64,000 nucleotides of DNA from Paraphysoderma sedebokerense (taxonomy: Eukaryota; Blastocladiomycota; Physodermatomycetes; Physodermatales; Physodermataceae), in the NCBI GenBank assembly GCA_025602915.1, contig JAHLJZ010000043.1, positions 122,062-186,061 of the forward strand. Reading direction: 5' to 3'. Position numbers and translations under genes: made by a program. The stretch's first letter is position 1. Each line of letters opens with the position of its first letter. This document shows positions 539 to 47,000 of this stretch, piece by piece. The notes under the pieces are model-generated. The model did no database searches. It worked only from the letters and a program-made list of their open reading frames with translations, and was not told where the DNA came from.

Positions 539-3500
539 TTATGGCGTGTGCGACGTGACGGCGCTCCCACCCCCTTTCTTTCTATTAAATACTAATCCTA
601 ATGGCACTTCGTCGTCATCCTCATCTACCGATGCGTCAGACAGTCCACTCCCATCCGTGTCGTCAGAATAATAATCTTCCATTTCGACATCAGAGCCTGA
701 AGCGGAGCTCGTATCACTGCCACCAGGATAACCTGTAGCATTCTCATCAGTTGCAGCAAGACCATCAGAGGAAAACTGAAGCGAAGATTCGTCCTCTATT
801 ATAGCAGATTGTGGCTGGGCGTAACCAGAAGCCTCCACTGTGGCAACATTGTGTTCGTGTGTCGACGACCCGTTTCCACTGGATACTTTCTTGATTTTGA
901 CTCTAGAAGGTTGATAACTTAGACCTGACTGATCCATAGTGATACTGACATCTGCGCCATCTGTTATCCATGTATTTGCAGCCGAATCAAATTCATCGCC
1001 AGCTTTCCTACTGCTTTTATCTTTCCCGGGAGACGCTTCAACCGACTTTGATCGCGGCCTTGATTTACCTCCAGATTTTGTTTTTCGCCGTTTCTTCGGC
1101 TGACTTGCGAAGTCAACACTACTAACTGGCGAGACATGTTCGCCGACGGAATTGCGGTTGTTATAATTCACTGGCGGTAGTACGAACTCAACTCGACCGC
1201 CATTGTTCATCCTCTTTTTCTTTTTCTTCCTAGGCTTACCAGAACCATCCACAGCACTTAACTTTCCTTTCTTCCAAACGACGACATCATTCCTATTTGT
1301 TCCGTTCTCTTGCAGAGAAGTGTCTGAATTTCGGCCATTGGCAGTCGAATTAACTGTCTCACCCTGCATAGCCTCATTCGGGGCTTGGACGCTATTTGCT
1401 AGCATCATCTCTTGCTCCCTTTTTCGCAAACCGACATACCATACCAGCATATTGCTTATCAAAACCTGGTGGCACAGCGGACGCTTCGGATTTGCCAGCT
1501 TTTGATGGGCAAGTCGGCATATCGCGCGTTCAATGTGAAGCGGGTAACGAAGAGGACTTGAATATTTGACGACCGTCACATCAAGCGACGCTTCTTTAGT
1601 CGACGATTTCGTCTGGTTTGATGATGAAAGAGACGATTGAAGAGCTTTTTTGGACGCTTTGAATAATGAAGAGAGCCCAGATTTTTTCGGCTTTACGACG
1701 GGATCTATAGTTGCGGCTGGCATATTAGAGGGAGCTGTTGAAGCAACTGGGAGTGAGACTGGGGAATCGGCTGTAGTTGATTCTTCATTATTGTCGCCTA
1801 GCCCCTTCTCTTTTTCTTTCTCCCTTGCAACATTAGTCCTGAACCATGACGACCACGATCCCTTGCGTTGCCTGGAATGTAGTTCGTTGGGTTCACCTGT
1901 TGGCTCTGCATTCTCCTTCTCTGGTTCCACCTTGCTCTCCACTCCATTAGATCCCGTCTCCAAATTCAGTGCACCAAGTACTTCCGAGCTTTTCCGCCTT
2001 TGCTGCGCAATAGAAACAACTTTCTTCTTTTCACTTATGATTGGGAGCGATTCACTTCTTTTTACCCGGAATTCAATAGGGGGGTCTGTTTGCGAATCCG
2101 TTGCGGTAGGAAACGGTTGAGATATATTGGGGAGAGATTGGGATATGGGTGCCGATCCGTTAGACGACGGAAGCGAGGATGGTGGATTAGATGTGCTCAA
2201 AGAGAAACCAAAAATGGATCGTATTATGGATTTGGAGGGGGATGTTGAAAGATTAGCCGGTGATGATGGCAGTGATTGCGGAGATGAAGATGATGATTCG
2301 TCTTCCGAGGGTAATGCGGTTTTGGGAGCAGACCTCGATTGTAAAGACGGTGGAAGGGGTATCAAAGTGGAAATAACGGAAGATGTTGGTGTCATAAACT
2401 GTGCATCCAGCACTGGGGACTCTGGTGTCACACTGGACGCCGAGTCAGACTTGGTGTCGTCGCCATCGTTAACAGAGGGAGAGTTTTGTAAAATCGCATT
2501 AGTTTCGCATTCTGGCAGCTTATCATCTTTACGTTTATCGAGCGACGGCTTTTTCAGCGAAGTAGAACGTTTAGGAGGAATAATTTTGACTGAAGTTATT
2601 GGAAAAGACGTGTCATCGCCAAACTGACTTATCAACTGGCTCCCTGTAGACGAATGAGTCGAGGTAGAAAGGTCAAGAGCAGCCATAGATGTAGCAGAAG
2701 AAACCGCCGATTCCGTATTTGAAACTGCAGATTTACTCTCAGCTATAGTTGAGTGAGTCGGCCGTTTGTGCCGGGAAACTGTTCGTGGAGGATGAAGGGT
2801 TGGGGCGTCAGGTAAACTGGGCTGCGGAGTAGCGATAGCCACCGAGGAGGAAGGTGCTACAATTTCAGTTGAGATATTCGAGGAAAGGATTGATGTATCA
2901 ATAGCAGATTCCTTTACGACAAAAATAGGACTTGAGTCGTTGCGAGCTTCGTCGGCGAAGTCCGATAGTTTCTTATTTTCTAAAATGGGATCCCCGTGAT
3001 TAGATAGCTTGCTCTCGGAGGTCTTGTCGATTTCATCCAAATCGTCCATAGACGACGTAACCGAAGCTGAATCGGTCAGTGATGATTGCCTTTGGTGGGA
3101 GCCCTTACCAAGGCTACCCCTTCGGTGCTTCACTATTCTTGCTGCACGCTTCAGTTTGGTGCCTGGTGTGATTTTAGGAAGAACAGTAGGAACAAATTCA
3201 TCGGGCAAGGATTCTTTGAGCAATTCTATGGTCGCTTCTGGTATCGGCGCTACAGAATCCGCAACTGACGCAATGACGCTTTCGCTCGCTTCTTTCTCCT
3301 AACATCAACAGCAATGAGTTATCAGAGAACGCAGCTATTATAAATTTGTATCTTACCTGTTCAGCTATGGGCTGTAAATTATTATCTATGGGGCTGACTA
3401 CGACATCTCCCTCATCACCGGCACTAATAACACTACTGGTTTCTCTAAAACTTTTTCTCCGCTTGACTCTGCTGAGGGCTGTTTGACCGAGCTGCATCCG

Positions 3501-16739: not shown

Positions 16740-17091
16740 TATATGTGGCTCTAATCCAAACAGTAACATCTGATTTGCTCAATCACGATTATTATTCGGT
16801 AAACGGCTTAGGGGTGCCATATTTTTGGAGGGCACTATTTTCGGGTAACAATCCCACGAACCGGCAAATAGAACTAATTTGGGGTTAATGTGCTATTGTG
16901 AAGATGTTTCTGACCCTCCGACAACAGTTTCAAGAAGCTTTGTACCGTTGTCTGACTTGTCAATTCTTACCATGCGGACTGGGCACAAAGGACGCGCTTA
17001 TTTATTTTCAGTTTGTTCTTTGCGCTTTGCACGCAGATAAAAGACTGGCCCTCGCTCAAAGCTAGATGTCTGCGAAAAAAAATTACACAAA
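16740..17091. other. Intergenic region before the secreted orphan gene
   Basis: This holds the 3' flank of the HhH gene and the promoter of the following gene. A GCAGATAAAAGAC stretch near 17034-17046 may act as a TATA-like element about 50 bases before the next ATG. No gene was seen. Confidence 0.4.
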
Positions 17092-18561
17092 ATGCAAGTT
17101 ACTCAGCTTTATAATATTATCCACAAAGCTTTTATTGCGAATTTCATTTTCATTGTTCTTGTCTCGGCGGAATTTAATGTGGTCTCAATCACAAGCAAAA
17201 GTAATCAGAATCGACCCAATACGAATAATCAAATAATTAGCTATTCCACCATTTCAGAATCCGTATGGGACCTCAAGAATGAAGTAGAAGTGACGGTTGG
17301 AACTGGGCCTGACATTCTGGAGCGGGTTGATTTTTTTGGGATGGATTTGTACCTTGTCAATCCTACGAAACATGCTCCTGGTTATGTAAAGCATTCACAT
17401 GTAGGGAAGATGCTAAATCCTTGGCTTAAGGCCGAAGAGAGATCTATTGAGCCTAATACAGACTACACTATTAAATTTAAACCGCCGTCGTTCCTGCGGT
17501 CAGGGAAATATCGAATGATCATTGCCGTCGCGGGAGAAATAGAGGACTACAATTACGACACCATAATCCAAGCCAAATCTTCCGTTTCGATCGACATTAC
17601 AATTCAATCAACATATCAACCCGATTCAGCACTCTCTTTAGATCCTGCAACAAAGCCTGTTCCCAAAACTGAAACTCTTAAAGAACATGACATCGTCGTT
17701 GTCCAAAAACTGCTTCCTCGATTCACATCCCCAACCGATGTGTGCAATTACTGCGCCAGTTCCAGGTCGATGATGACAATTTGTGATCATGTTTTGCGGC
17801 TACCATACCCTCAAAGTCTCGAGTTACCTCGTACCACGTCATTCTACACCAATTTCTACCTTAATCAGTTCCAAAATGGGGGTGTACAGCAATCATTAAC
17901 TACTCAAAATATCTGTCGTTTGGGATCTATTGATATTGCTTTGCAGCAATTAGAATTCAAATACAATTCACTCCAAGTTCTTCCGTCTTCAATTCCGTCA
18001 GGGCCAATTGATCTATTGCGAAGCAATGTAAAACATCTGAAATTACCATCCGCTATGACCAGTGCCGACGAAATATTATACTGGTCTCATCCCCATCTCG
18101 ATGTTTTATTCCAAATACATTATGCTCAACGGTACAACAATATCAAGCATATCATCAAGGAAACTTATAAAAGTGTATTTAATGTTCCTCAGTTTCGGAC
18201 ATTTAATGGGGACGAAGCCATCGATCTAAACCAGTTAGAGCAATCAATACGGAGTCTCTTAAGTTATCCTCGGTCGGATGACTTTAAACGAAAAATGGCC
18301 AAAACTATCCGGTTGGAAATAGAAACAAACGGAGATTACATCTGTCTAAGTCGTGCCGATCCATTCTTGTAAGTGGCTCATTTATTAGAACTTCTGAAAT
18401 ATGTTAGATGCGATTTGCTAATCGCCTCCCTTCGGTGAAAAAGAACGATCGTCATCAGCAATGAACTGAAAAGAACTGGCCAATTTGATACGATGGTGGA
18501 TTGGCGCGATACAAGTGAGAGAAGAAGGGCTCAAATCATTAATAATATACTAGAATGGTAG
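17092..18561 (+). CDS. Secreted protein of unknown function
   Basis: Exon 1 runs from ATG 17092 to about 18368. A GTAAGT donor and an AAG acceptor near 18445 continue the frame as TIVISNELKRTGQFDTMVDW and end at TAG 18559-18561. The total is about 468 residues. The N-terminus has a hydrophobic stretch (AFIANFIFIVLVSAEF) consistent with a signal peptide. Residues 50-170 look like a beta-rich domain (VWDLKNEVEVTVGTGPDILE, YLVNPTKHAPGYVKHSHVGK, SGKYRMIIAVAGEIEDYNYD), reminiscent of immunoglobulin-like folds of surface proteins. A central CNYCASSRSMMTIC segment has four cysteines. The latter half is alpha-helical in composition. No known domain was recognised. It could be a cell-surface or secreted lineage-specific protein. 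Confidence 0.7.
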
Positions 18562-18938
18562 AGTGTATTCGCCGTAATTTGAGAGCTACTGTATAAATAA
18601 TTCGAAACAATGTATAACCATATCCTTAATACGAATGATAATGCTATAGTTTCGTGACAGGACATAGATCGCCTCTAGTATTTGTGTGACAATCACCTTA
18701 TTTCGCCACTAGCTATTGTAGCAAGCGTCAACCGCAAGGTGATAAAGAGAGAGGAATTGCAGCTTCCGTATCTTCTAACAATTCGCGTTTATTGGACTCT
18801 TAAAGCGATTCGCATCATACTCATACAACACAGCCTCATGAACGCTAATATATCTTTTTAATCTGTAACCTAACGTAGTAAGAATAAATCGAATGATGCA
18901 ACAAAATTGAATTCTCTTCTGTCACTGCAAAAGTCTGT
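18562..18938. other. Convergent gap
   Basis: AT-rich sequence between the 3' end of the secreted-protein gene and the 3' end of the large fusion gene. No gene, repeat or structured element was recognised. Confidence 0.45.
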
Positions 18939-21900
18939 CTAAAGTTTACTTTGGGCCCCAGAACTCTTTGGAACTTTGTTCGCCTGTTTTAAGAATTCTT
19001 TATCGAGGTGAGGAGCTAACACGGTTTCATAACCTTCAAAAGGATCACGTTGATTAAGAACCGAACGTTGAGCGGCTTCGAAGAGAGCTTCATAGATATT
19101 GCCTGTTCATAACACAAATAATCTTAGTAATTCGCATCGTCTCGTTTTGCGGATAGAAATACAATAATCGTACCATCAGCTCTGCCAATTGTAGAATTCA
19201 ACACTCTGTCCGGAATATCAAATCCGTCGACTAATGCAATTGCGTCTAAACGATGGTTTCAAAAATTTAGGCTCTCTTCGATCAATGAAGATCATAATGA
19301 AAGATACATACTGTTACGTAACTCATCCATGACAGCAACGAGTGCGCTCTTTGCCATTTGCACTTGTTCCATATTCAACATGCCGATGAAATTTCCGTCT
19401 TCGACGATGTAGCTTAAAGCGAACATTTTACAAACACCGTTTAATGCTTTCTTTACAGCGGGATCTTGACAGTTATTTACGGCATTCACGAAGTTGTCCA
19501 TGAAGAAATGATAGGTATGAGCTCTTACAGCATTTTGCAATTCTAATGCTGAAGCGTTGAAACTGGTCTCAAAAGTTGCTTTTTCGTCCATCTTAGTTTG
19601 GAATCGTTGGGCAGCGGAAACGACGATTTGAGCAGCAGAATATTTGATTAGCGAGAAGAGGAAATCGATGGAATGGAATCCTTCGCTCGTTGCCTCGGGC
19701 GGTTGTTGACCATGATAGGTCAGGTAAGAGACCATGGAAGAAGTTGGATCCAGTTCGCCCTTCATCACTCTTTGTACGGACTTCAGGAGATAGCGCCCGG
19801 TTTGTAGCATAAGAATGATGAAATCACCTTCGGCGGTAATTTGCCAGACATAGTTGGCGGCTGATGAGAATAAGTTAGGAATTTCGCCGTAAAGCAATGG
19901 CTATGTAAGAAACCAAAATCAACGTACCAAGAGGAGCCAACCCTGCATTCAGTAAGTAACCATTACCACCACAACATTTTCGGCAATCTTCAATTCCAGC
20001 CCATGCGAAATAGGTACAGAAAGCCTTCAACCCGCTCGAGGTTGCAGCAATTTCGGGGAGCAATTCAACATTGGCGAGCATTTCTTTGCCACTGGCCATT
20101 TCTTGGAACTTGCTAAGCATCCAAGTACCTATCAACAAATGCAAAGATTCTCAACATTACAGTGCTCAACGAAGGAAAGCAATAAGCGCGGCATTTACCA
20201 GTGAAATTAATAGCATAAGCCATGGCGAGTTGCTTGAAAACTCGATAACGTTGAATTTGGTAATCGATAATCTTATTTTCCTTATCAAGGTAATCCTTCG
20301 TTCGTGAGTTTGAGAATCCTTGAGTTCTGATACAGCTGTAACGAGTGGCTACAGTTACAGCTCGCGCCAAGTATCCTCCAGAGGCTTTAATCATCGACCC
20401 ACTATAGGAATAAAGTATTTAGCGAATTGTAAGTTATCAAACCGATCGATCAATAACAACACATACCGGGTGAAGATCATGGTAGTGTAATGCAATTTAG
20501 CATTCTTCTTCTTCTCAGGGGTGACAATGTATTCTCCTTCCGGTGTCACATATTGATATTTGGCAAGCATATATTCTCGAGGAATTTCGACATTGTTGAG
20601 AATCATGTACCCGGTATCGTTGGCTGTGGCAGCATGTTAATAACAGTGAATACAGCGTTCAGCGGAACAATACTATATCTTATAAAACGCACCATGGTCG
20701 CCCAATTTTGTGCCCAAATCACCTAAACTGATTCCTGGAAGTGGTTTATGATTTTCATCCCTCAGTTGTAGCATAAAGCTGTGGACACCATATTGCTTTC
20801 CATCAATGATTAGCTGGGCGTATACAACTCCATGGGTAGCAACTTTTCCGAGAGCTCCGGGCCACCATTTGATACTAGCGGAAAACATATTTGTTAGTCA
20901 GTCGCATTTGACGGAGGTACAAATTTTGGCGCATGACGAACCTACGAAGAGTCGGTGTATGCAAAACAAAAGTTTGATTTCTCTTGTTGAATGTTGCAAT
21001 GGTTTGTAAACCTCTAACGTTCGACCCGTGCCCAAGTTCAGTCTAAGAATCAATTTTTAGTCAATATGAACATAAATTAGCTTTTCGACGTTTCAATATA
21101 TCACCTGAGCATAACAGCCAACAATTTTCATCTCACGGCATCGTTGCACCCACCATTCGCGTTCTAAAATGTGGCGATTGTTAAAAATAAGATGGAACGA
21201 TATTGGCATGAATCAGACAAGTGGGTCATACGTTGATCATTGCCATGTGCCATTACAGTTTGCAAGAACAATCCATAACTGTTCATTAAAGCACCACTGT
21301 TCATACTGTACATTCCCTAGAGATTGAAAATAAGAAACATAGTTAGCGGCATTGAATTATGCTCAAGCATGTCGAATACGAAGTTCATTTTTACCATCCA
21401 AGCGATATCCATCATAGTGGGTTGAAAGTTCTTCCAGAATCTCTCGTGCACTTTGACAAAATGAGAGATGTGTTCCTTCAACAGTTCTGGTCTACTCAAT
21501 TCGAAGATGTGGCTTAAATCATCACCCTTTGTTGGCGAGAGAATGAATCGACGACGCTTGGTATTTTCAACACCACCATCAAGTGCATTCGTAAGCTTTT
21601 CTACGTCGAATGTAGCCTTGGCTCTTTCTTGTGTTAAAACAGAGGCGGTGCCACCTGATTCTAGGGATTCGACATCAGAAGGTTTCATGACAAGTGGTTT
21701 TCCATTTATCATGACTTGAGACGATATGGACGGAGTAGTCGAGTGAGACCCTGCCGCAGGAGCGGGTGAACTTCCCTTAATTTTACCAATGATCGTATAC
21801 GGTGCGTATTTTGCAACCACATCAGGTTTCTTTTGTTAACATAAAGCAAGAAGTCAGCTAAAAAATACACCCAACTTGTAAACTCATATAGGTTACGAAC

Positions 21901-24667
21901 GTGGAGCATGTTGAACTCTTCTGTGGCATCTTTACCAGCGTAAATTAGAATCGCTTTGTCACCACCTGGGTGTTCCGCCAAAAATTTGGTGACATCCAAA
22001 ACTTGACCATTCACGACAACCCAGCAATCATCTGGCTTGTTGTGTCTCGCAATCTAAAAATTAGGTCAAGGATGAGGGAGCAATTGACATCTCTGTGGTT
22101 ACGTTATAATCACGTACCTCTTCCCATGTCCATTCCTTGTTAGGGTCGACTGGAAGGTCCTTGTGCTTTACAGTTGAATCAATTGGAGCTTTAACCATTG
22201 CGGATGTGGTATCTTTTTCGACGTCATATCCACTAACTACTCGAGCTGAATCTTTGGTTCCAGCCTGAGCAACTGACTCGTCCCATTGAATTTGCATATC
22301 AATACGTTTTGCGTTGGGCGCAACCGAAACACGTGTTGAGACACCACCGTTGGAAATGATGGCACCAATTTGTGGGCCGTTTTCAGTGGATACAGTTTGT
22401 TGAACTGAAGTCGCGGGGGCAAGTTGGGACGACACAGCCGAAACACGATTTGCTGCTTGCTGAGAGGGTTGAATCGCTTGAGGCTTTCGTGAAGACAACT
22501 CACTGAAAAGATATCGCGAGGCACTATGGAGACGTCACAAGTTATTTAATGACTATATGTTCCTTTTCAAAACAGAGTTCAATCTAGAACCAAACGATCT
22601 TACCTGTCACCAGCAACACGTCCAAAGACGACACACCCAAGAAGAGATGAACCACCCAATCGATTTGCGCCTGTACGAGCATCGAAATGTCAATGCGTAA
22701 TACGACCATGTTTGCAAACAAGAAGAATGATGGTAACCGTGAACACCGCCCGCAACTTCTCCGGCACAGAACAATCCGTTGATGACACCGCTGGGTTTCT
22801 TTACACGACCTTCATGATCTATTTCGATACCGCCCTGAATAAAAGTAGGTTATTTTCCATTCGCAGCACATGTTACTCGACAATACATACCATAGTGAAA
22901 TGCAATACTGGAGTTACGAAGGCTACGTGGAATTCATCATTCATGGTAAACGGAACATTATGGTAGAATTTCTTCCCAAACTGATCTTTTCCAGCCTTAG
23001 CTACCGCATTATAGGTATTAAAAGTTTCTTCCAATGCGGCGGGTTGAATACCCATCTCCTTGGCTAGATCAGCTCCGGAGTTGAACTTCTTCATGAGACC
23101 ACGTCCCACGTAATGTTTGCAGTGCCATTCGATTTCTTTTGATGCTTTAGAATTTAAGACCAGACGGAACGGGCCTTTATTTTTTCCCATTTCACCGGTA
23201 ACATAGTCACGATGACCGAGTTCGTCACAGAATCGTTTACCTGAACCGATCAAACCCATTAGTCGGGGGTTTACGACCAACCTATCACAAGTATCATAAG
23301 ACACCAGCCGGAACAAATCTACGAACCATTGGCATCAAGAAGCAATCCTCCCACTCCGCGTAGAGCTTCAGCAGCTAGAAATTTTACTTTGGATTCGGGT
23401 TCTTTAGGGTCAACGAGACCAGTGGGATGAACTTGTACTTTCTCCAAATCGACCGCATTCCCACCTATAGCAAGCGTCATTTTTAAACCGTCACCAGTTG
23501 ACCAAGACCCATTGGTCGTCTAGTTAAACATTAATTTACGTACAACAGGGGGCTTGAAGAGTAAAGGAAATCTACATACGGGCAAATGCACGATATCAGG
23601 TCTGTGTTTCTGCAACAACGAATCTTGAGTGAAATCGGCAGCGTAGCCACCAGTAGCCAATACAACAGGTCCATACAGCTGATGAACTTTTCCATCTTGA
23701 ATGTATTCCACACCCACAACATTTTGTTGTGAATCAGTTATAAGACGCGTAGCTTTAGCTTTTTTAATAATCTGAGCACGATTGGGTTCTCTTGTTGCAA
23801 TTTCTTCAAGTTTCTCCATGAGTGCATAAGTGATTGTCATTCCCGGAAATTTTTCCTTCCCTCTAAAACATTGCGATTTACGATGAGAACAAGAGAAATT
23901 GAAGGAAATGCAAAATAGAGAGGGAAACGAACCGATGAGTTCTAGGCTGGGAGTGTCCACCTAATCTAGAAACTAAACTTAAGTCGAGCCCAAATTTCTC
24001 CTGCAACCATTCAACGGCGGATGCTGAGTTGTATGTTAAAACTTTCGCCAATTCTGGGCGTAGTAACTATTCAAAAAGATTTAGAAAAGGCAAGTCGCAC
24101 AACACGTTACTTTAGGCGCGCATGTGCAAGTTTCGTTCGAGTCGAAAACAGGACGCTGAGGACGGCAAAATCATAAAAACTGAGAAAATACATACATCTC
24201 TAGCAGATCTAGCGGTATCATCATAAAATAATTCTTGTGAATCCTATACCCCACCAAACGCAATGTTGTTAATCACCAGTCTCAAATCCTCGCCCTAGCT
24301 CAAATCACGGCCTGCGGCCTAAACCTGCCCCAGCGGCGCGGCCCGCGAGCTTGAACGGAAAGAATCAACAAACCGGAATGCCCAATTTCCGTTGGGTATT
24401 TGTCAAGGCCCCGTTAATACCGCTGGTAGCTTTAGTCGAATTACCACCCAAGTAAGGCATTTTATCGAGGACACAAACACGGCCTCCTCTTTCCAGTACG
24501 GTATGGGCGGTCGAAAGACCGGAGAGACCACCTTACAAAGAACGTCAGGTAAGTCAAGGACATGGCAACATAACCAGAAGCGGAGCTATGATTCAGTATG
24601 AATGGGGATTGAAAGGCTTAGAGTGCACACCTCCTACTACGATTACTTGGTTTGGAGAGGCAGTCAT
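18939..24667 (-). CDS. Fumarate reductase - cytochrome b5 - acyl-CoA oxidase fusion, peroxisomal
   Basis: One long spliced frame runs from ATG 24667 to TAG 18939. Part 1 (to about 22500) is a soluble FAD fumarate reductase of the Osm1 type: the N-terminal [31 protein letters not shown], then [32 protein letters not shown] and [19 protein letters not shown], which carry the known active-site His and Arg residues. After a Ser/Ala/Gln-rich linker, part 2 (about 22150-21780) is a cytochrome b5 domain with both haem histidines ([20 protein letters not shown] and FNMLH, then [15 protein letters not shown]). The same exon continues without a stop into part 3, an acyl-CoA oxidase: [39 protein letters not shown] and a full C-terminal domain ending GAQSKL, a PTS1 signal. 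Length is roughly 1,400 residues. Acyl-CoA oxidase performs the first step of peroxisomal beta-oxidation; fumarate reductase makes succinate. I infer one peroxisomal enzyme in which fumarate could take electrons. An assembly error is unlikely but not excluded. Confidence 0.9.
24248..24382 (-). other. GC-rich intron of the fusion gene
   Basis: The intron between the exon ending [11 protein letters not shown] and the exon starting [16 protein letters not shown] begins GTTTGTTG and ends GGGGTATAG. Its centre (about 24287-24357) is strongly GC-rich, with GGCC and GCGC runs (CGGCGCGGCCCGCG), unlike every other intron in the window. Confidence 0.6.
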
Positions 24668-25293
24668 GTTTTGGGCTTAGGTCGCGACTTTTGAACTTGA
24701 CTAGCTATGAAGGAGTTATCAAGATGCAAATGCGAAGAGAATGCTTGGTAAAGACAAGAGGATAGAATGAAGGTCGAATGAGCTGTTTGAATTGGGATGG
24801 GGAGAGGGAGGGAGGATGTCTAAGAGAAGGCCCTCGTAAATGTTAATTGTCCAATGAATCTCGGACCCCGCTTGAAAAAGGGTCTGGGGTAGCTGGCTGA
24901 GTCCCGAAACAACTGAACACACTATTGTTGAATGACATCACTCGCCATCCACTAAAAATGCATTTAGCTGCGTTCATTTATGCCAAAATCTATTTCTATT
25001 TTGTCGCCTCGCCAATTTGAGCATAATTGTCTCGGCATTCTCCCAAATGCCTGCATTTTCAAATTGAGCATGGCATGAGGTGATAAACGTAGGCAATTTT
25101 AAATCCGAAACAACAATCTACAAAACAGTGTTCAGTATACGTATGAGTCAGTCGCTTTTCGTTCAACACATATTATTACTGTCTTTAATTATTAAAATTA
25201 TAAATCAATTTTCACAATTTCCTAGATGCTAAAACTCAGATACGAATGCATCAGAAAAATCAATCTCTTTTTGTAATATTCCCACACATGGAG
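24668..25293. other. Intergenic region, fusion-gene promoter and IDH2 3' flank
   Basis: The left part should be the promoter of the fusion gene; the right part follows the isocitrate dehydrogenase stop. The stretch 24719-24922 is open on the minus strand with low-complexity Ser/Pro coding and is probably not a gene. The right half is AT-rich with ATTATTAAAATTATAAAT near 25188-25205. No clear CGG-N15-CCG oleate-response type site was recognised. Confidence 0.4.
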
Positions 25294-27141
<1,848 letters not shown>

Positions 27142-44001: not shown

Positions 44002-47000
44002 ATGGCTTCAGTGGCCTGGGAAATTTTAAAAACCGTCGAGCCTGGAACTAGGTTTGTGGCCTCGTTGATGGAAGTGTCGTATGGTAATTGTCCATGCATA
44101 CTCAGTAACATCTAACCTAGTAGTATACTCTAACTTTCTCTTTATTTTTATTATTAGCTTTGATTAATCTGAGGCAGGCACTCAAGTAAGTACATGTAGA
44201 ATTGTAGTCCAATAGAGAGTGTAAGCTAAACTGTTTCTTTCACCAACATAGACGTATACCACCGTTGATTGAACAATTAGATACTCGTCTCAAAAACTTG
44301 ACTTTTTTTCTTGCTTCTATTCATGAGCTGAAGCCAAAGAACATCGCCATTCGAACGGTTTTCGATCAAGCCGACAGTCGATTATCGGAAACATTTGAAG
44401 ACTTCAAAAAATTTTGCGATCAATATAATAAGCGAGGAGCAGTGAGAAAATTTGTTTTATCTATCAATGATGAACAATTTCTTCGTCAATGTGGTCGAGT
44501 AATAGGTGAAGCTACTCAAGAGTTGAGTTTCAGTTTACAAGTGTCAGAGTACCAAATTGTTGAAGAACAGACAGATATGTTGACTTTATGTTTGCAAAAA
44601 TTGAAAGAGAATGAGAATTCAAATGCAGACTTATTGAATGAGATTGAGAATTCAATGTCCCGGGGATTAAGAAAAGTAAATGAAGATAGCGGAAAAGTGG
44701 TTAAAATAGTGGAAGGATTGACAGGGAAGCTGATTGGATTGGAAGATCATGTTAAAGAAATTAAAGATAAAATGGAGAGCTTACCGAGATACCTAGAGAA
44801 TGTTAAGAATGATGATGTCAAAGGTAATGACATTCTACTGCTGTCCTTTGGATTTCATGTCTAACAAAAATGTTGTATCTAGAATTATGGAATTCTCGAC
44901 ATTGGGAAGATTCCGTATTAATTGATCGATTCTTAAAGGGTTATCTGGAATTTGTGCAAAGCAAAAATCCCGGTATGAACAGAAAACTCTTAACCATCTT
45001 ACTCTCGCGGACTGGAAAAAGGCTAGAAGAAAAGCTGCGACATCAATTAGGGAAATCTAATTCTGTCATTTTTGTGAGTCCCGCTGATTTGGACATTCCC
45101 TATGATGTGTCCTTAAAAGATTTATTTTTGTGGTCCGAGATGGGATGGTATGATTTCTATTTCTATGTCTGGGTGTAAGTTACAGATTAATTGATGGCAG
45201 CTCTCTCATTTAGGAGAGTGATAACGGAAGTACAATTGCAGGAACTTCAGGAATTGTCCGCATCTTTCGAGTTTGATCCACACAAATTGAATCGACTTCT
45301 CTCGCATTTCGAAACTTTCTTTAACTCGATTTCCAACATTTATCCAATCGACGAAGATCAAATCTCGTCGATCCTTGACACTCATCAAACACTCAATTCC
45401 CGTCCCTCGGTTTTAGAAAAAATGTGGTCTCCTGTTGAGTTAGAACTGGTCAATATAATGAAGGAATTGAAGGCGCATATTAACAAGGATCCTTTATCGT
45501 TCGTATTGGAATCCAATTTAATCCCAAACTCTCCCGGCCCGATGTCTGAAAGATTCGACTCAGTGCAATTCTATAAGCGTTACTATGACCGCCTTTCGAT
45601 GGTTGCTTCGTCAATCCTGAATCAACTAGAAGTTCCCTGGGTTGATGAAAATGGCAGCCCGGGTTCGGTGGAAAGTTTGAAAAACCTTGTGCATGAGGAT
45701 GTAGAGAAGGACCAGAAACATAATAGTGAAACAATGCTGAAGTTTAAGAACGTCGTCGATGTGTTAAATGAATTAAAGCGATCCTTCAGCCGTTGTTCGT
45801 TCATTTCGCCGCAGTCCTTCCGGCAACCGTGGGATCGATTAAATTTTCCCTCTTCAGCATCCTCGTCGAACAAAATGACATTCACGCCAAATCTGAAACT
45901 CAAAGCAAGTCTTAGAGGTCGTTCGGTGTTAATTCATCCGGTGCCTTATTCAATATATGCTCCTTTACCCACGTCCATTCTCAATCAGTTGCGTCGATTC
46001 CTCGCTTTGCCACATCACGATAACATGCTTAATATACTCGGATTTACATCGTATGAGTCAAACTGGGCAATCATAACCGATTTTATCTCCCCATCCTTTT
46101 CCACCCTGAAGTCTCAATTAACCCAGATCAAGGAACTGGACATAACGTCCAAAGTTGAAATAATGTTAGAAATTTGCAACGCTACGATGTTTCTTGCCGA
46201 GAATGACGTTGTCCATGGTGGCCTGCATAGCTCAGCTGTATGGTTGGGGAAGCGGAGAACACTTAAAATAGTGCCACTGGTGGAAGGATTGTTATTGGAG
46301 GAAAATCATAGCGAAGATACAGATTACAGAGATCCTGAATGCAAAAAAGGAAAAGAACTTAATGCAAGTAGTGATATTTGGAGGTTTGTTCCTTCCGACT
46401 ATTTCTTTTCTTTCGTTTCAAAACGTAAACTCATGTTGCGGTTTTCTCTTTCTTGTATGACTTTTAGCCTTGGCTGTTTAATCTATGCAATCCTATCTGG
46501 CAACGATCCCTTCCCAGCATCAGATTCTGCTGATACCATGTCGCAATCCTACTATTTAAAACCTGATGGTTTGCCTGTTCCTGATGGAACAATTAGCGAT
46601 CTTCGGCTCGTCTACAATTCGTGTTTACAACTTGATCCTGAGAGAAGGATTGGTGCAGAAGAAGTATTAGATCAGTTGGAATCTGTGCTTAAAACGCTGG
46701 AAATGATTGAAAAGGCGAAGCAAGAAGTAGCCCAGCATCCACCGAGGGTAAGAAACTATTCTTGAATATACTATAATCGTTGCAATCTGTAAATAACATC
46801 GTTCCCTCTGCTCAGACCGTTTTCAACAAAACCTCCAATGCTGCTTCAGTAACCAATGGACGGACTACATCGCTTTACTCAGTGAGCGATTCAACATCTA
46901 TGATATCTCAGACTTCAAATCCGCCACCGTATTCGATAACGTCAGCTCAAACTGATAATCCGTCTGATCTCCGTCTCACTCCGTCACTTATTATGAAAAT

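Follow-up and report, generated by a model that had tools for sequence, protein, structure and literature searches.

Structure of the gene

The DNA analysed here, referred to below as the window, is a stretch of 64,000 nucleotides (nt) from the blastocladiomycete Paraphysoderma sedebokerense (contig JAHLJZ010000043.1). On its minus strand lies a gene in which an Osm1-type fumarate reductase, a cytochrome b5 domain, and an acyl-CoA oxidase are joined in one reading frame. Hand-splicing of the minus strand gave 22 exons and 21 introns with a single frame of 1377 amino acids (aa), and every one of the 21 introns is of the GT-AG type and between 56 and 130 nt long. A preliminary description of this DNA had read all three proteins from one spliced frame at 18939-24667, and hand-splicing reproduced that exact span. 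The same description had placed the junction between the b5 and oxidase parts in an exon at 21820-21317, with no stop between them. The uninterrupted frame was recovered, but the end coordinate was not: the exon in question, exon 12, runs from 21829 to 21395, and position 21317 is the end of the intron that follows it, not an exon boundary.

Judged from the sequence, the completeness of all three domains is supported, with an Osm1-type reductase, a b5 domain that carries its haem motifs, and a full-length oxidase. The features of the gene and of its immediate surroundings are as follows.

24667..18939, minus strand: whole fusion gene, spliced by hand, with the ATG at 24667 and a TAG ending at 18939.
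22508..24667, minus strand: domain of the Osm1-type soluble fumarate reductases, taking up aa 1-461 (exons 1 to 9 and the first part of exon 10), assigned from Pfam, TIGR01813, and 5glg.
22130..22507, minus strand: linker 1, from the reductase to b5 (aa 462-587), with coding-like codon use.
21779..22129, minus strand: cytochrome b5 domain (aa 588-659), spread across exons 10, 11, and 12 (Pfam Cyt-b5, E 1e-24).
21858..21900, minus strand: candidate alternative intron of 43 nt inside intron 11, which would truncate the protein.
21829..21395, minus strand: exon 12 (435 nt), with the end of b5, linker 2, and the start of the oxidase in an uninterrupted frame.
21638..21778, minus strand: linker 2 (aa 660-706, 47 codons), the first half of which is rich in Ser, Pro, and Ala.
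21712 and 21688, minus strand: codons of the internal Met682 and Met690 in linker 2, read from the sequence.
18939..21637, minus strand: full-length acyl-CoA oxidase (aa 707-1377), assigned from Pfam and aligned to residues 6-656 of the 661 of 1is2.
19831..19829, minus strand: codon of the catalytic Glu1127, located by the comparator alignment.
18942..18950, minus strand: C-terminal Ser-Lys-Leu (SKL), a predicted type 1 peroxisomal targeting signal (PTS1), read from the sequence; the protein ends in GAQSKL.
18788..18862, minus strand: ATTAAA (from 18862) and AATAAA (from 18793), past the real stop, found in a hexamer scan.

The fumarate reductase and cytochrome b5 parts

Residues 8-443 match the Pfam family FAD_binding_2 (E 4.9e-75), and the reductase part also exceeds the cut-off of TIGR01813 (flavocytochrome c). 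Its closest solved relative is fumarate reductase 2, the structure of yeast Osm1/Frd1 (5glg; E 7e-105, 43% identity), with which it shares the flavin and clamp domain. The lists of the catalytic residues of Osm1 and of those in contact with flavin adenine dinucleotide (FAD), fumarate, and the second flavin were taken from PMC6242907. All six catalytic residues are common to the two proteins, H281, E301, R304, R326, H435, and R477 of Osm1 being H251, E271, R274, R295, H398, and R437 here. For the FAD contacts, nine of the 11 named residues are identical, with A45 replaced by Ser and V194 by Ala (PMC6242907 counts fifteen such contacts and names 11). Six of the seven fumarate contacts are also identical, the exception being S78, which is Thr in the window protein. 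The second flavin pocket is less well conserved. K76 is kept, S78 is the Thr just mentioned, P162 is gapped beside a kept Pro, and K255 is replaced by Ser. On sequence comparison, this partial conservation could be in keeping with haem, rather than free flavin, as the electron donor.

The b5 part has both haem-ligand motifs, EHPGGDK (His619) and NMLHKPD (His642), in alignment with 4b8n and 3ks0, and its best PDB matches are the cytochrome b5 4b8n and cytochrome b2. In cytochrome b2, the b5 domain takes electrons from a flavin. The window protein resembles flavocytochrome b2 (L-lactate dehydrogenase) in having b5 tethered to a flavoprotein; however, flavocytochrome b2 has one flavin and one substrate, whereas b5 in the window protein sits between two flavoproteins.

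A single gene or two

We are fairly confident that the three parts are read as a single protein. The single-gene case is supported by three features of the sequence, namely, the continuity of the frame, the presence of both homologies within exon 12, and the shortage of space for a boundary between genes. The two remaining frames of exon 12 are packed with stops, and linker 2 is open in the correct frame only. Between residue 659, where the Pfam match to b5 ends, and the start of the oxidase homology (residue 707 or 708), there are 47 to 48 codons, or about 140 nt. By comparison, the gap to the stop of the upstream gene is 626 nt and the gap to the end of the convergent downstream frame is 566 nt, so that, going by these two gaps, the junction would be tight for the ends of two genes as genes are spaced locally. 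A pair of genes whose separating stop had been overlooked was also considered and is unlikely, because the space is small and there is no in-frame stop.

The codon use of the two linkers was compared with that of the other frames. Linker 1 had a frame score of +0.32 versus -0.13 and -0.03, and its codon bias was matched in 0.4% of 2000 simulations. The evidence from linker 2, scored over residues 666-706, is not decisive: its frame score of +0.14 versus +0.01 and -0.12 is weak or neutral, and its synonymous codon bias was no better than random over these residues, which leaves coding not proven.

Separate products from this one locus, made by alternative splicing or from an internal promoter, would be a free reductase-b5 protein and a free oxidase, with the long frame rarely or never translated whole. 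Starts at Met682 or Met690 would yield a full-length oxidase, an upstream acceptor within intron 11 would terminate the reductase after a short tail, and a free reductase-b5 protein exists in Penicillium (PMC7348727). However, the alternative intron of 43 nt is shorter than all 21 introns of the gene (at least 56 nt), and this alternative splice of intron 11 deletes the conserved end of the b5 domain. When five types of poly(A)-signal-like hexamers were sought, none was found in 22523..21395, versus two past the true stop. In addition, a terminator and a promoter would need to fit into the same 140 nt or so. We consider separate products unlikely.

An assembly or base-call error, by which an overlooked stop or a chimera gives neighboring genes the appearance of a fusion, seems very unlikely. 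A single-base indel in linker 2 would be enough to put stops in frame. Against such an error stand the even base composition across 4-kb steps (a coarse measure), the likeness of intron lengths and splice sites on either side of the b5/oxidase junction, and the small room for a boundary. Repeat-mediated misassembly was rejected, as no repeats of at least 20 nt were found in 18500..25500.

The acyl-CoA oxidase part and its C terminus

The oxidase part matched the Pfam families Acyl-CoA_ox_N at residues 717-830 (E 2.2e-11), ACOX_C_alpha1 at 975-1142 (E 1.8e-51), and ACOX at 1183-1356 (E 2.2e-40), these three families (PF14749, PF22924, and PF01756) all being over their cut-offs. The middle domain, PF02770 Acyl-CoA_dh_M, was found at 832-941 (E 2.9e-7), but its 31 bits are just below the cut-off of 33.3. 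Against the acyl-CoA oxidase 1is2, which we take to be rat ACOX1, the whole part gave an E of 2e-126, and over residues 788-1148 its identity to 1is2 and to 2fon, presumably the tomato enzyme, was 41% and 45%, respectively. The likeness to ACOX1 (1is2 and 2fon) extends over the full length and includes the catalytic Glu; unlike ACOX1, the window oxidase is fused to two redox domains.

For the active site, the comparators displayed were 1is2, 7q84, 2fon, 1w07, 5k3j, 5k3g, 5ys9, and L001, the last being the locus returned by the database search described below; of the nine oxidase structures listed, 5y9d and 5k3i were left out. The solved structures named throughout this text are from yeast, rat, human, tomato, Arabidopsis, Caenorhabditis elegans, and Yarrowia, and 5ys9 is presumably the Yarrowia enzyme, that is, a fungal comparator. 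Glu1127, the catalytic residue, is kept in the window oxidase, as are two long conserved motifs. At the position of this Glu, 5k3g carries Glu and 5k3j carries Ala, which we assume to be an engineered mutation. Three changes near the active site set the window oxidase apart from ACOX1: the His of CGGHGY is Asn, the aromatic residue before Glu is Ala, and the Asn three residues after Glu is Phe. The aromatic residue, Asn, and His are kept at these positions in all eight displayed comparators. Furthermore, six non-fungal oxidases have 98 columns without variation over residues 788-1148, and the window oxidase departs at 25 of them, which indicates that its divergence is widespread and reaches beyond the active site.

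The same positions were compared in six acyl-CoA dehydrogenase frames, taken from the 15 matches that a single bacterial genome gave. None of the six has His at the CGGHGY position, where M, Y, M, M, D, and N were found, and the residue before the catalytic acid is aromatic in four, Leu in one, and Gly in one. This gives a weak hint that loss of the oxidase His or aromatic residue also occurs among dehydrogenases.

Given these changes, the fusion might be real and the oxidase a remnant with little or no catalytic activity, serving to carry the reductase to the peroxisome. Such a reading draws on the three changes near the active site, the 25 altered columns, and the middle-domain score just short of the cut-off. 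The retention of Glu1127 and of the two long motifs, together with the strong score of a full-length domain, argues against it, and we regard it as highly improbable.

The C-terminal SKL had no place in the preliminary description. SKL is the canonical PTS1 signal for import into peroxisomes.

Proposed electron route and competing functions

By analogy with known systems, the fusion could be a peroxisomal acyl-CoA:fumarate oxidoreductase, that is, a single flavo-haem protein with the order reductase-b5-oxidase-SKL. Of the explanations weighed here, we favor this one and consider it quite possible, if somewhat short of probable. A more far-reaching version, in which the protein works on its own as an acyl-CoA:fumarate oxidoreductase in fungal peroxisomes, with an oxidase flavin site that has drifted from the oxidase pattern and with succinate, not hydrogen peroxide, as the product, is rather doubtful. 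In the proposed mechanism, the fusion protein would be imported into peroxisomes via SKL, and its acyl-CoA oxidase part would convert fatty acyl-CoA to enoyl-CoA, thereby reducing its FAD. From the reduced FAD, electrons would move one at a time to the haem of the tethered b5 and from there to the reductase FAD, at which fumarate would be reduced to succinate. Beta-oxidation would then yield succinate instead of hydrogen peroxide and could run without oxygen. The route from acyl-CoA through flavin, haem, and flavin to fumarate is the one put forward in the preliminary description, and it is plausible by analogy. Along the sequence, b5 is placed between the two enzymes, and its haem could bridge the gap from flavin to flavin. 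The single frame, the kept catalytic residues of the reductase, both haem-ligand motifs, the complete oxidase with its catalytic Glu, and the three departures from the oxidase pattern near its active site speak for this reading.

As reported previously, acyl-CoA oxidase in peroxisomal fat oxidation is normally tied to oxygen and produces hydrogen peroxide (PMC9512073). In yeast, the FAD of Ero1 gives up electrons to Osm1, either on direct contact or through free FAD, and Osm1 delivers them to fumarate, which permits disulfide formation without oxygen (PMC6242907). In a docking model of Osm1 and Ero1, the flavins are more than 20 Å apart, too far for direct transfer, and Ero1 is argued to bind at the site that the haem domain occupies in bacterial Fcc3 (PMC6242907). 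In the bacterial Fcc3 fumarate reductases themselves, a fused haem domain feeds the flavin (PMC6242907). Erv1 likewise donates electrons to Osm1 and fumarate (PMC7155059). Because Osm1 re-oxidizes Ero1 without oxygen and also accepts electrons from Erv1, the proposed route is better precedented than had been allowed at first. The electron logic of the window protein would be like that of Osm1, which accepts from the flavo-oxidases Ero1 and Erv1 (PMC6242907, PMC7155059). Osm1 as described there, however, is without a haem domain and without an oxidase part, whereas the window protein has both, ends in SKL, and has a partial second flavin site. Shewanella Fcc3 is similar in that a haem domain is joined to the flavin domain of a fumarate reductase (PMC6242907), but its four-haem domain is N-terminal, whereas the window protein has one b5-type domain C-terminal to the reductase.

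Several considerations weigh against an acyl-CoA:fumarate oxidoreductase. The residue changes in the oxidase may in large part be lineage divergence, and the altered active site could mean an altered substrate or lost activity instead of a changed acceptor. Given the potentials involved, electrons could flow downhill from acyl-CoA/enoyl-CoA through b5 to fumarate/succinate, but the drop is small. Judging by the Penicillium protein, the reductase-b5 pair seems to work without the oxidase (PMC7348727). Moreover, the three-part fusion was not met with in any second species when prokaryotic genome contigs were searched with the oxidase and viral contigs with the oxidase or the reductase; as the collections scanned were those of prokaryotes and viruses, the absence of the fusion there is uninformative for fungi.

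The leading alternative is that the fusion serves co-import and proximity only. The oxidase would then be an ordinary oxygen-using enzyme, and the reductase-b5 pair would be carried in by its SKL. There b5 would be fed externally, e.g., by NADH-cytochrome b5 reductase, NADH being reduced nicotinamide adenine dinucleotide, and fumarate would re-oxidize the NADH of beta-oxidation. We consider this possible, with the balance against it. With SKL at the oxidase end and no N-terminal leader seen by eye on the reductase, co-import becomes a serious competing reason for the fusion. The oxidase part is also full length, and NADH-b5 reductases are established as common electron donors to b5 domains. 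The glycosomal fumarate reductase of trypanosomatids is not known to include an acyl-CoA oxidase. This enzyme resembles the proposed one in residing in a peroxisome-derived organelle and differs in being fed by NADH, as it is listed as NADH dependent (PMC9512073).

The nearest known system is found in the microbodies of Penicillium chrysogenum, where a fumarate reductase-b5 fusion, Pc12g03090, was detected by mass spectrometry (PMC7348727, citing Kiel 2009). It thus provides one reported case of the b5-carrying fumarate reductases that the preliminary description calls frequent in fungi. Like part of the window protein, it is a reductase fused to b5 in fungal peroxisomes; unlike it, no acyl-CoA oxidase part is mentioned in the account given by PMC7348727, and the two proteins are compared by description only. 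The Penicillium protein makes the peroxisomal placing of a reductase-b5 pair credible and reduces the novelty of the pair. Since no oxidase is mentioned with it, it also helps the co-import explanation. Against co-import stand the position of b5, which adjoins the oxidase through a linker of 47 codons, and the loss from the oxidase of the three residues near the active site that the displayed comparators have in common.

Relatives and earlier descriptions

The search of the prokaryotic and viral collections returned a sole locus, L001 (CAJJAW010000007.1, 203935-210630), with an acyl-CoA oxidase on a contig filed under an alphaproteobacterial metagenome-assembled genome. The frames of L001 look eukaryotic by eye and its oxidase ends in SKL, and for these reasons we take the locus to be contamination, probably algal in our judgement. 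Among 398 genomes drawn from the phylum of L001, PF01756 was found in one, which was the genome of L001 itself. The oxidase frame of L001 lies at the contig edge and is closely preceded by a stop. It looks like a stand-alone oxidase, with an upstream exon possible.

Among the matches listed in the open-licence literature, a scope outside which most subscription papers fall, none described the three-part fusion. Nor is the fusion described in the available text of PMC6242907, PMC5922974, PMC8520639, PMC12014800, PMC8887013, PMC9512073, PMC8611851, PMC7155059, or PMC7348727. Each module is already known, and the combination of the three is the element for which we found no description; automated annotation may list the architecture.

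If true, a fusion of reductase, b5, and oxidase would suggest a purpose for the peroxisomal reductase-b5 proteins and would offer a testable enzyme for oxygen-independent peroxisomal beta-oxidation. The fusion also bears on the acceptor of peroxisomal acyl-CoA dehydrogenases, which are reported to work in fungi and mammals (PMC9512073, citing Camoes 2015).

Neighboring genes in the window

Ten long frames of the window were profiled with Pfam; seven had matches and three had none, and no fatty-acid or fumarate enzymes were found by Pfam among these ten. Upstream of the fusion gene and on the same minus strand, the exons at 25294..26453 resemble isocitrate dehydrogenase by eye. On the other side, a frame of 443 aa at 17041..18369 (plus strand), convergent with the fusion gene, had no Pfam match at E 0.001. 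A frame of 918 aa at 545..3298 (minus strand) carries a Zds_C domain, a family that we take to be fungal, and it points to a probable fungal origin of the window. The window also encodes, according to Pfam, a pantoate ligase, the RNA polymerase I subunit Rpa2, and a single-subunit RNA polymerase. Finally, the frame at 45191..46762 (plus strand) was matched by two Pfam kinase models, the best stretches each covering part of the model.

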